From NCBI RefSeq assembly GCF_002812485.1, contig NZ_CP025003.1, positions 1,488,001-1,552,000 of the forward strand: 64,000 nucleotides of DNA. Direction: 5' to 3'. Positions 7,913 through 10,430 of this stretch are shown in pieces. The stretch comes from Dickeya fangzhongdai. GTDB lineage: Bacteria; Pseudomonadota; Gammaproteobacteria; Enterobacterales; Enterobacteriaceae. The notes beneath the pieces are model-generated. The model was given only the letters and a program-made list of their open reading frames with translations, did no database searches and was not told where the DNA came from. How positions within the stretch are numbered: the stretch's first letter is position 1; each line of letters opens with the position of its first letter. Position numbers and translations under genes: made by a program.

Positions 7913-8737
7913 ATGAGCAGTAACTTCAGACATCACGTGTTGAGTCTGTCGTTACTGGTTGGCGTAGCGGCCCCCTGGGCCGCTACTGCCCAGGCGCCAA
8001 TCAGTAATGTCGGCTCTGGCTCGGTAGAAGATCGAGTCACTCAGCTTGAGCGTATCTCTAACGCTCACAGTCAGTTATTAACCCAACTTCAGCAACAACT
8101 CGCCGACACTCAGCGCGATATCGATGGCTTGCGCGGCCAGATCCAGGAAAACCAATATCAGTTGAATCAGGTCGTTGAGCGTCAGAAACAGATCTATCAG
8201 CAGATTGACAGCCTGGGTTCTCAAAGCGGCGGCCAGTCTTCTTCTGCCGCGTCATCGGCAGCAGGAGCGGGCAACGCGGCGGCGTCTGCGCCGGCGGCAA
8301 CCAGTAATACTGGCGCGGCGAATAGCCCCAGCGCTGATTCGGCAGCGGCACCGGCCATGACTGGCGATGCTAACACCGATTACAATACGGCGGCGTCGTT
8401 AGTATTGGAAAAAAAGCAGTATGATCAGGCTATCGTGGCGTTTCAAAATTTCGTCAAGAAATACCCTGATTCAACCTACCAGCCGAATGCCAACTACTGG
8501 TTAGGGCAATTGTTCTACAATAAGGGTAAAAAAGACGACGCGGCGTATTACTTTGCTAATGTTGTCAAAAGTTACCCTAAATCTCCTAAAGCTTCGGAAG
8601 CTATGTTCAAGGTTGGCGTCATCATGCAGGAAAAAGGGCAGACTGATAAAGCCAAGGCAGTCTACCAGCAGGTGGTAAAAAACTACCCGAATACCGATGG
8701 CGCCAAGCAAGCTCAGAAGCGTTTAGCCGATTTGTAA
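7913..8737 (+). CDS. cpoB: Cell division coordinator CpoB (YbgF)
   Basis: Periplasmic protein of 274 residues that links peptidoglycan synthesis (PBP1B/LpoB) with Tol-driven outer-membrane constriction. The signal peptide ends near ATAQA (about residue 27). A trimerising coiled coil (about 40-100, rich in Gln) is followed by an Ala/Ser/Gly-rich linker and a C-terminal TPR domain (about 150-274) with repeats such as YDQAIVAFQNFVKKYPDS. It is the last gene of the tol-pal operon. Confidence 0.95.
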   Translation: MSSNFRHHVLSLSLLVGVAAPWAATAQAPISNVGSGSVEDRVTQLERISNAHSQLLTQLQQQLADTQRDIDGLRGQIQENQYQLNQVVERQKQIYQQIDSLGSQSGGQSSSAASSAAGAGNAAASAPAATSNTGAANSPSADSAAAPAMTGDANTDYNTAASLVLEKKQYDQAIVAFQNFVKKYPDSTYQPNANYWLGQLFYNKGKKDDAAYYFANVVKSYPKSPKASEAMFKVGVIMQEKGQTDKAKAVYQQVVKNYPNTDGAKQAQKRLADL

Positions 8738-8744
8738 TTCCCTT

Positions 8745-8787
8745 TCTGGTGCAAAAATTGCGCGATATGCGTGGTTTTTGCGCCAGA
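8745..8787 (+). terminator. Candidate terminator hairpin after cpoB
   Basis: 13-bp stem TCTGGTGCAAAAA (8745-8757) / TTTTTGCGCCAGA (8775-8787) with one G-T wobble and a 17-nt loop, 8 bp after the cpoB stop. A run of nine T lies 24 bp further. The long loop makes it atypical. Confidence 0.45.
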
Positions 8788-8831
8788 ACGTTCAAGGGAT
8801 AAGCAATTGAATTTTTTTTTCGGAAAATAGG

Positions 8832-8859
8832 TTGCACAGAAAAATTATATTAGTAATAT
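8832..8859 (+). promoter_or_regulatory. Candidate promoter of the tRNA-Lys operon
   Basis: TTGCAC (8832-8837) and TAATAT (8854-8859) with a 16-bp spacer, followed by a GC-rich discriminator (GCCGCC) as expected for stringently controlled stable-RNA promoters. About 53 bp before the first tRNA. Confidence 0.6.
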
Positions 8860-8911
8860 ATGCCGCCGTTGCCAGGGCGATGCTGAATCGCTGAAAGCAG
8901 CAAGGTGTTTT

Positions 8912-8987
8912 GGGTCGTTAGCTCAGTCGGTAGAGCAGTTGACTTTTAATCAATTGGTCGCAGGTTCGAATCCTGCACGACCCACCA
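8912..8987 (+). tRNA. tRNA-Lys (anticodon TTT), copy 1
   Basis: 76-nt cloverleaf with encoded CCA. Acceptor stem GGGTCGT pairs with ACGACCC. Anticodon loop CTTTTAA has anticodon TTT at 8945-8947; the T-arm is GCAGG TTCGAAT CCTGC. Identical to copy 2 and near-identical to E. coli tRNA-Lys. In E. coli the same locus (after cpoB) carries a larger Lys/Val tRNA cluster. Confidence 0.98.
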
Positions 8988-9022
8988 AAACAAAAGAATC
9001 TCTGTGTAGCATATCCCGTAGC

Positions 9023-9098
9023 GGGTCGTTAGCTCAGTCGGTAGAGCAGTTGACTTTTAATCAATTGGTCGCAGGTTCGAATCCTGCACGACCCACCA
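9023..9098 (+). tRNA. tRNA-Lys (anticodon TTT), copy 2
   Basis: Identical in sequence to the first copy, 35 bp downstream of it and probably in the same transcript. Anticodon TTT at 9056-9058. A tandem array that repeats the 3' end of this tRNA follows directly. Confidence 0.98.
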
Positions 9099-9553
9099 TC
9101 GCTAAATAAATCACTCCCCCTTTAATTCGCTCACCATTATTTCAATATCGCACAGTCGTGCAGGTGAGAAGCTGCGTTCAGGTTCGAGTCGAGCGAAGCG
9201 AGACAACAGCGCATCGCGCTGGCCCGAAGGGCGAGGCCGCAGGCCGAGTCATCCTGCACGACCCACCACCGCTAAATAAATCACTCCTCTTTAATTCGCT
9301 CACCATTATTTTAAATATCGCACTGTCGTGCAGGTGAGAAGCTGCGTTCAGGTTCGAGTCGAGCGAAGCGAGACAACAGCGCGTCGCGCTGGCCCGAAGG
9401 GCGAGGCCGCAGGCCGAGTCATCCTGCACGACCCACCACCGCTAAATAAATCACTCCTCTTTAATTCGCTCACCATTATTTTAAATATCGCACTGTCGTG
9501 CAGGTGAGAAGCTGCGTTCAGGTTCGAGTCGAGCGAAGCGAGACAACAGCGCA
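9099..9553 (+). repeat. 170-bp tandem repeats carrying the tRNA-Lys 3' end (rtT-like)
   Basis: About 2.7 copies of a unit with a period of exactly 170 bp (caggtgagaa at 9161, 9331 and 9501). Each complete unit ends with CCTGCACGACCCACCA (9253-9268, 9423-9438), the exact 3' end of tRNA-Lys including CCA. Each also carries a tRNA T-loop-like CAGGTTCGAGTC. Mid-unit GTCGTGCAGG (9155, 9325, 9495) is the exact reverse complement of the tRNA-end CCTGCACGAC, so transcripts could fold into a long hairpin. Minus-strand open frames here are a by-product of the repetition. The layout resembles the 178-bp rtT repeats after E. coli tyrT, which also contain a tRNA 3' end. Confidence 0.9.
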
Positions 9554-9710
9554 TCATCTCCTCATGTGGGTTTTGTTATATCTCTTTTTGCTTTAGACCG
9601 GTTTAATCACGCCATCGCATTTGGCGTATAGTAAGGGCTTCTTTTTTGACTGATGGCGATATTCCTTCGCAATCTGACAGGCCGAAGGGTGAGCCTTAAG
9701 AGATATATTG

Positions 9711-10430
9711 ATGATGATTGGTCCGGTTATCAATGGCGCAGCCATTCTGATTGGCGGCGCATTGGGCGTGGCGTTGCACCGTTTTATTCCCCAGCGTATG
9801 CGTGATGGTTTACCACCGGCGTTTGCGATGGTGTCGATCGCAATGGGGATAACGCTGGTGGTAAAAGTTCACCAGCTTCCTGCGGTTGCGCTGGCGATTA
9901 TTTTGGGGGTAGGGATCGGCGAGTTGCTGCGCCTTGAAGCCGGCGTTCAGAAAGGGGCGATACTGATTGAACGCTTGCTGAGTCGGGTTGTGCCGCCGCC
10001 GGAACACAAATTACCGCAGGATGTGTATACCCAGAACTTTACCGCGCTGATTGTGTTGTTCTGCGCCAGCGGCACCGGTGTGGTTGGCGCGATGACCGAA
10101 GGGCTAACCGGCGACTATCAGCTGCTAATCATCAAGTCGGCGCTCGACATTTTCACGGCGCTGATTTTTGCCATTACGTTGGGCGTTGCGGTGATGTCGA
10201 TTGCCGTTCCGCAATTTCTGGTGCAGACGCTGTTGTTTTTCTCCGCCAGACTCATCATGCCGTTCATGAATGACATCACCATGGGGGATTTTGCAGCTTG
10301 CGGCGGCATTGTGATGATGGCTGTCGGGTTGCGTATCGCCCAGATTAAAACCTTCGCAGTGGTTAACTTCCTGCCGGCGTTAGTGCTGATTATTCCTTTC
10401 TCCCTTTACTGGCATCGCCTGTTTCCCTGA
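9711..10430 (+). CDS. DUF554 family membrane protein (YqgA-like)
   Basis: A 239-residue inner-membrane protein of the DUF554 family; function unknown, sometimes suggested to be a transporter. The N-terminus MMIGPVINGAAILIGGALG and the motif FTALIVLFCASGTGVVGAMTEG are typical of YqgA. Six or seven hydrophobic segments are visible. Start choice: TTG 9708, ATG 9711 and ATG 9714 are all in frame; ATG 9711 fits an AAGAGA ribosome site about 7 bp upstream. It stands alone between the tRNA repeats and nadA. Confidence 0.85.
   Translation: MMIGPVINGAAILIGGALGVALHRFIPQRMRDGLPPAFAMVSIAMGITLVVKVHQLPAVALAIILGVGIGELLRLEAGVQKGAILIERLLSRVVPPPEHKLPQDVYTQNFTALIVLFCASGTGVVGAMTEGLTGDYQLLIIKSALDIFTALIFAITLGVAVMSIAVPQFLVQTLLFFSARLIMPFMNDITMGDFAACGGIVMMAVGLRIAQIKTFAVVNFLPALVLIIPFSLYWHRLFP

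Follow-up and report, generated by a model that had tools for sequence, protein, structure and literature searches.

The window, a 64,000-nucleotide stretch of Dickeya fangzhongdai DNA, contains a tandem repeat array behind a pair of tRNA genes. From cpoB, the locus continues with two tRNA-Lys(TTT) genes and the array, after which come a DUF554 gene and nadA. The gene for the TolA-binding TPR protein CpoB lies before the tRNA pair and is itself preceded by an OmpA-family gene, presumably Pal judging from its position. A match to the CpoB/ybgF thermometer (RF02782, 7804-7942, 125.7 bits, cut-off 51) reaches from the last part of the OmpA-family gene into the first part of cpoB. The initial annotation had described two tRNA-Lys genes followed by repeats with a period of 170, and both points are confirmed, the former by ARAGORN and the latter by TRF, which places the array at 9081-9555 with 2.8 copies, 97% matches, 0% indels and a score of 899 (Table 1).

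Each full unit of the array ends in a tail copied from the tRNA. The tail ends, read from the sequence, lie 170 apart, at 9098 (the tRNA itself), 9268 and 9438. The 3′ end common to the tRNA and both full units, ATCCTGCACGACCCACCA, is identical at 18/18 positions; the earlier claim that the tRNA 3′ end is copied in each full unit thus stands, with the copied stretch corrected from 16 to 18 nt. The reverse complement of the tRNA end that had been claimed for each unit was likewise found: GTCGTGCAGG, the reverse complement of CCTGCACGAC, forms the arm at three sites spaced by 170. Since the third copy has an arm and no tail, the array comprises three arms and three tails, the tRNA's own tail counted in.

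Table 1. Features of the tRNA-Lys locus, in window positions
Feature	Coordinates	Strand	Basis
tRNA-Lys (TTT), first gene	8912-8987	+	ARAGORN; Rfam tRNA 79.2 bits
tRNA-Lys (TTT), second gene, array host; last 18 nt (9081-9098) are the copied tail	9023-9098	+	ARAGORN; tail match
Spacer 1, C-rich, G-poor trailer, rut-like	9099-9154	+	Composition (C 33%, G 5%, 9099-9153)
RtT unit 1 (Rfam match)	9144-9268	+	cmscan 109.5 bits; fold; sequence
Unit 1, arm	9155-9164	+	
Unit 1, sense T-arm copy CAGGTTCGA	9179-9187	+	
Unit 1, hairpin insert	~9188-9250	+	
Unit 1, tail	9251-9268	+	
Spacer 2	9269-9324	+	Composition (C 29%, G 5%, 9269-9323)
RtT unit 2	9314-9438	+	cmscan 110.1 bits; sequence
Unit 2, arm	9325-9334	+	
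Unit 2, sense T-arm copy	9349-9357	+	
Unit 2, insert	~9358-9420	+	
Unit 2, tail	9421-9438	+	
Spacer 3	9439-9494	+	Composition (C 29%, G 5%, 9439-9493)
Partial third unit, arm (9495-9504) and start of core, tail absent	9495-9555	+	TRF end 9555; repeat search; nhmmer model positions 4-75 of 131

A protein-coding array was considered and rejected: stops occur in all three forward frames, and a period of 170 is not a multiple of three. On the minus strand, an ORF of 83 aa runs across the array (9178-9429); a peptide was reportedly once proposed for tyrT.

Membership in the RtT/TLR family

RtT takes its name from the repeat RNA of E. coli tyrT. The likeness to rtT suggested in the initial annotation is borne out, and indeed both full units pass Rfam's cut-off for RtT (RF00391, 45 bits), matching model positions 1-130 of 130 with E-values of 2e-22 and 1.3e-22, far beyond chance. 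They resemble the Rfam family in their whole-model score, in the tRNA 3′ tail and in the arm–tail closing stem, which is part of the consensus structure and comprises 10 bp in the window unit. They differ from it in their tRNA-Lys host, their period of 170 and the presence of AGGTGAGAA where the alignment consensus has AGGATGAGAA. A search across the genome gave only these two sites at E ≤ 10 among the 150 of 249 first-look candidates scored. Weak Rfam rows for YrlA, Plastid-ycf2 and IRES_Bip fell below their own cut-offs and were taken as chance or tRNA cross-matches.

The tRNA-linked repeats (TLRs) of E. coli, a family known since 1978 as cited in PMC8144298, number 22 in strain K-12, spread over ten loci with one to five each, and each shares its 3′ 18-19 bp exactly with the tRNA or rRNA gene that immediately precedes it (PMC8144298). 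The present array is alike in both respects: the 3′ ends of both full units are those of the upstream tRNA gene, and two full units and one partial unit follow a tRNA operon in the gap between cpoB and the DUF554 gene. A role suggested for the repeated end is recognition by RNase E (PMC8144298). By its sequence, the window array is thus a further locus of the known RtT/TLR family, and tRNA-Lys is an ordinary host. The earlier view of that host as something special has to be given up, as a pattern scan returned at least 116 Lys-type unit-end stretches, widespread in Enterobacterales and including one from Dickeya oryzae. Enterobacterial repeats significantly similar to the rtT transcript have also been described among BIMEs (PMC2965389); those elements lie upstream of protein genes as candidate attenuators, whereas the window units lie behind tRNA genes.

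In PMC8144298, TLRs are described as lacking a known function until the rrA, rrB and rrF RNAs were shown to bind Hfq and CsrA, and a starvation claim for tyrT is noted as later retracted. RrA, RrB and RrF, encoded behind E. coli 5S rRNA, share with the window units a copied host 3′ end and conserved stem-loops; unlike the window array, which shows no terminator-like site in 8700-9750 and no GGA, they lie between two intrinsic terminators and contain GGA (PMC8144298). These RNAs, which are transcribed and processed, are a precedent for a regulatory role, in which the array would be processed to stable RtT RNAs acting in trans on Hfq, CsrA or, as in the decoy idea of the initial annotation, sRNAs or tRNA-processing enzymes. 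RNA-seq of Pectobacterium atrosepticum adds three RtT-class sRNAs (PMC4710047), and the unit structure is conserved by covariation, as described below. Such a role is nonetheless unlikely. Two of the P. atrosepticum RtT sRNAs are given places in protein-gene UTRs, under the label ‘RtT and TPP’ (PMC4710047). The 19 tRNA-operon TLRs of E. coli have a CsrA-binder prediction below 0.01, and even RrA, RrB and RrF are reported in PMC8144298 to have no clear phenotype. In particular, a CsrA sponge was rejected, as GGA, the core CsrA motif, is absent from 9099-9553.

Match between unit and host tRNA

The family comparison drew on 159 fetched loci, a part of the family and order matches chosen for spread. 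From 303 nhmmer hits, 237 full units were obtained, 233 of them with an upstream tRNA and 205 distinct (hosts: Tyr 104, Lys 40, Pro 35, Ser 24, Val 2). The two units nearest to Val genes were dropped, the Lys gene there probably lying inside a run of N, which left 203. The permutations below take no account of relatedness; tRNA positions, including 49-70, follow standard numbering.

In 172/203 units, at least 16 of the 19 tail positions match the host. The best pairing partner of the arm is the tail of its own host in 184/203 (Tyr 104/104, Pro 32/35, Lys 33/40, Ser 15/24), the remaining 19 pairing as well or better with another host, and mean arm–tail pairing over 187 distinct arms is 8.48, against 7.02 ± 0.10 for shuffled host labels. 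Some arms and tails also change together within a host type: Tyr tails ATCCTTCTCCC occur with AGAGAAGG or GGAGAAGG, and among Ser hosts ATCCCCCCC occurs with GGGGGGGAT. Other variants do not follow, among them L039, which keeps GGGGAAGG although its Tyr tail is ATCCTTCTCCC, and the Pro ATCCTCTATC arms, which pair in the T-stem only. Seven Ser(GGA) units of the genus are unusual in that their tails agree with the host at 10-11/19 positions. Tails that have left the tRNA sequence (AATCCCGACCG...) occur in Ser(GGA)-hosted units of genus relatives in L013, L018, L020, L021 and L023-L025, no tRNA being found within L018; the inverted copy in L013 instead opens with the complement of the entire tRNA 3′ end, CCA included.

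A test of a contiguous arm stem against shuffled tails was applied to 101 units found by their Lys tail alone (from 80 of the at least 116 stretches) and gave a weak result: the stem beat 95% of shuffled tails in 12/39 units of 130-182 nt, 5/25 classed as ‘other’, 0/33 of 95-105 nt and 0/4 shorter than 80 nt. The short class of ~99 nt behind tRNA-Lys, 33 of the 101 units, carries CGTGAAGGATAACGTT... (L183, L197, L204 and others of L160-L239); its arm would pair with the Lys tail if one mismatch is allowed, as judged by eye only.

Fold and covariation

The initial annotation proposed that a unit transcript could fold on itself, and such a fold is indeed predicted. The stretch 9154-9268 has a folding energy of −54.3 kcal/mol, compared with −41.2 ± 3.7 for 200 shuffles (z −3.5, one shuffle as good), and its predicted structure is closed by the arm–tail stem. 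The signal is weaker over the longer stretch 9023-9600 (z −1.7).

Comparative evidence came from an alignment, A1, of 75 random units from distinct arms plus the window unit, 76 rows in all, three of which are window-unit rows with unit 1 entered twice in different frames. Over the closing stem and the four insert helices, 82.0% of cells are paired, against 39-44% when the strands are slid. Both-side changes affect 287 cells, compared with 76-106 after sliding and a mean of 107 after shuffling. The number of pairs with a both-side change is 23, compared with 20.1 in shuffles, 5/500 of which reach as high, while pair types are not unusual (63 vs 60.4 shuffled; 115/500). The inner hairpin likewise has 38 both-side-changed cells, against 2-13 slid and 11 shuffled, but only 2/8 of its pairs change on both sides, its pair-type counts do not exceed those of shuffles, and it covaries mainly at one pair (UA 29, GC 19, CG 10). 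Pairing at 7 or more of 10 positions is seen in 68/76 rows, a count flattered by a register chosen per row. Earlier RtT covariation had added a pair marking a tandem GA motif (PMC7657543).

Taken with the host matching, the sequences suggest that tail and arm tend to follow the host tRNA, the inner hairpin following more loosely.

A proposed folded-back anatomy

Compared with its host, the unit resembles the tRNA 3′ end copied twice, once inverted and once direct, with a common hairpin insert placed in the T-loop. In this layout, an inverted copy of approximately tRNA positions 70 to 49 comes first, covering the arm and the T-arm and most faithful in the arm. The T-stem 5′ strand and T-loop come next in direct copy, interrupted by the common insert, which forms four hairpins in the window unit. 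The last 18-19 nt, again copied directly, end the unit, and the arm–tail stem closes the RNA. With the insert in the T-loop, the start of the tail 18-19 nt from the end would be accounted for.

The arrangement can be followed in individual units. The reverse complement of tRNA-Lys positions 49-70 is GTCGTGCAGGATTCGAACCTGC. The Lys units of L094 have CCGTGCAGGATGAGAACCTGC and, almost immediately, GCAGGTTCGA, the host T-stem 5′ strand and T-loop in sense, then the insert and the tail. GATTCGAACC is kept exactly in some units (L054, L124, L129, L137), and those with an exact T-loop complement (L054, L124, L129, L113) have weak arms (5-6/10). In the window unit, the arm is exact and the inner part is kept partly (AAGCTGCG, CAGGTTCGA).

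The T-stem was compared in the 172 units remaining after 31 more with tails below 16/19 were left out, 166 of them with a readable T-stem. In these 166, the direct copy matches the host at 2.13 of 3 variable bases, compared with 1.56 ± 0.03 when permuted. Among Pro units, GGAGG, as in the host gene, occurs in 20/30, whereas AGAGG, which tail pairing alone would require, occurs in 6. Exact T-stem copies number 18/38 in Lys and 20/30 in Pro and are few in Tyr (GAAGG 5/92) and Ser (GAGGG 1/12). The inverted copy has a mean of 13.1-15.3/22 matches, against 10.5 ± 1.1 for shuffled targets, and is best for its own host, ties included, in Tyr 90/92, Pro 26/30, Lys 29/38 and Ser 5/12.

A search of the open-access literature other than the older tyrT papers, mostly by titles and the beginnings of abstracts, found no description of this host-matched anatomy. 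The main text of PMC8144298 has none of the words ‘inverted’, ‘palindrom-’ or ‘T-loop’, so it describes neither the host-matched inverted copy nor the T-loop insert in such terms. The anatomy may be one of the less known aspects of the family, and it may well be already in print. It is testable, in that it predicts a tail start in the T-loop and would explain the 18-19 nt length, and it separates hypotheses of selection on the fold from those centered on the CCA end.

A tentative extension, possible but doubtful, is that RtT/TLR units are tailored to their host, some copying process rewriting tail, arm and inner hairpin together behind a new tRNA. Candidate processes would be gene conversion with the tRNA as donor, or site-specific duplication that always breaks at the same point in the T-loop. 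If this were true, TLRs would not be ordinary repeats, but a small non-coding element that draws on tRNA genes to reshape itself.

A probable trailer and its termination

On balance, the RtT/TLR array, with its host-built units, probably forms a structured, Rho-terminated tRNA trailer that varies in copy number through tail recombination, an interpretation held with modest confidence. The array would be transcribed as read-through from the tRNA operon. The initial annotation had counted a strong terminator directly after 9098 against its idea; a simple scan of 8700-9750 found no terminator-like site, and no promoter-like site either. Because the stretch up to the next gene showed no intrinsic terminator, transcription may end in or behind the array, where the C-rich, G-poor spacers could load Rho. 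The CCA-ended tails would then be cut and trimmed by tRNA 3′-end enzymes, yielding by-product RNAs.

The C-rich, G-poor composition fits a Rho-dependent terminator, as does the lack of a terminator-like site in the 8700-9750 scan. The spacers, picked after they had been seen, reach the 99.4-99.8 percentile of the window for C minus G, both strands considered, a figure that is the best of 61 starts. Elsewhere in the family, C exceeds G in 56/70 Tyr, 12/19 Lys, 11/24 Pro and 4/17 Ser spacers; a C-rich spacer is not general, and Pro and Ser spacers are without such bias. Termination in the E. coli tyrT array is Rho-dependent, which together with the spacer composition favors the Rho-terminated trailer. 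The two systems are alike in having tandem units behind a tRNA and, for Tyr hosts at large, in the excess of C over G; they differ in that termination in the window is deduced from composition alone.

The same read-through RNA could in principle act in cis. The arm of unit 1 would pair with the tRNA 3′ end and rival tRNA folding until the unit tail, once transcribed, retook the arm. Predicted energies allow both partners, the upstream tRNA tail and the unit's own tail: the energy difference between the two folds ranges from −1.6 to +8.9 kcal/mol over eleven transcript ends (9166-9268) and stays within 1.6 kcal/mol at 8/11, and in one relative, G003, the arm persists without any unit tail. These energies, however, are calculated without tertiary contacts and modified bases, which should favor the tRNA; the tRNA is transcribed first; and near-equal energies are what exact repeats give anyway. 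A switch of this kind is therefore very improbable.

Distribution and copy number

RtT occurs in 7/9 genomes of the genus, the window genome included (Rfam, E ≤ 0.001), and, under the stricter filters of the wider searches (E ≤ 1e-4), in 234/391 genomes of the family and 76/394 of the order. The initial annotation had staked its proposal on the array not being absent from all relatives, and relatives do carry it: the others of these seven genomes and, as a tail-less remnant, one more, G003. In E. coli, 3,210 of 5,426 genomes match the window array, and the ten hits listed are annotated as RtT sRNA. Cargo of a phage or plasmid was rejected as a source: 9094-9580 matches 1 of 50,697 phage and 26 of 72,556 plasmid records, none of which covers 80% of the query.

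Among the nine genus genomes compared, the homologous locus ranges from empty to two full units. Two full units and a partial one are found in the window genome and G006, one and a partial in G002, at least one in G007, where the contig ends, and a tail-less partial unit alone in G003. G001 and G004 have no units, and three tRNA-Lys genes instead; that the locus is unit-free in two close relatives also tells against the sRNA reading. G005 has a run of N behind the tRNA, and G008 has N after the unit start. A second locus of the genus, with Val genes and then Lys, holds one unit each in G002, G004 and G006, one and a partial in G008, two in G007, and two and a partial beside N in G005 (L004, L010); no unit was found there in the window genome, G001 or G003.

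Copy number probably shifts when the tRNA tail recombines with the unit tails, which are identical to it; units would thereby multiply or vanish while the tRNA 3′ end stays intact, a whole tRNA being restored each time. The G003 remnant is what such a collapse would leave. The natural states at the Dickeya locus, namely none, a remnant, one or two full units, offer a convenient series for studying termination and tRNA-Lys maturation.

The same variability could be read as that of a selfish or passive repeat, one that arose by recombination of tRNA 3′ ends, is kept since tail identity keeps the tRNA whole, and has no function for the cell. The range from no full unit to two at the same locus within the genus, and up to six in one array elsewhere, fits such a repeat, as does the patchy presence in family and order. 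So do the array ends: in a rough count of 184 arrays, in which fetched loci overlap and 32/184 are without a full unit, 130 end in a whole tail, 26 are cut before the tail, 16 keep the stem part only and 12 have a diverged tail. The both-side changes in the closing stem and in each insert helix point instead to selection on the fold, or to copying that keeps the two halves in step, and a purely passive repeat appears improbable.

Among 80 of the at least 116 Lys-type stretches (L160-L239), the nearest upstream tRNA is Lys for 105/109 distinct units and missing for 4, a count that leaves out units within 170 bases of the locus start. Two of the stretches, L175 and L235, lie in contigs labelled Hylemonella (MAG) and Chryseobacterium, possibly through enterobacterial contamination of those assemblies. 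In L122, part of the RtT model is matched behind tRNA-Arg(ACG), which was not met as a host elsewhere in the comparison. In Photorhabdus, seven Lys-type unit ends occur in L171 and six in L228; in the latter, tRNA-Lys lies only 68 nt upstream in 5/6 distinct units, so that tRNA genes and unit ends seem to alternate.
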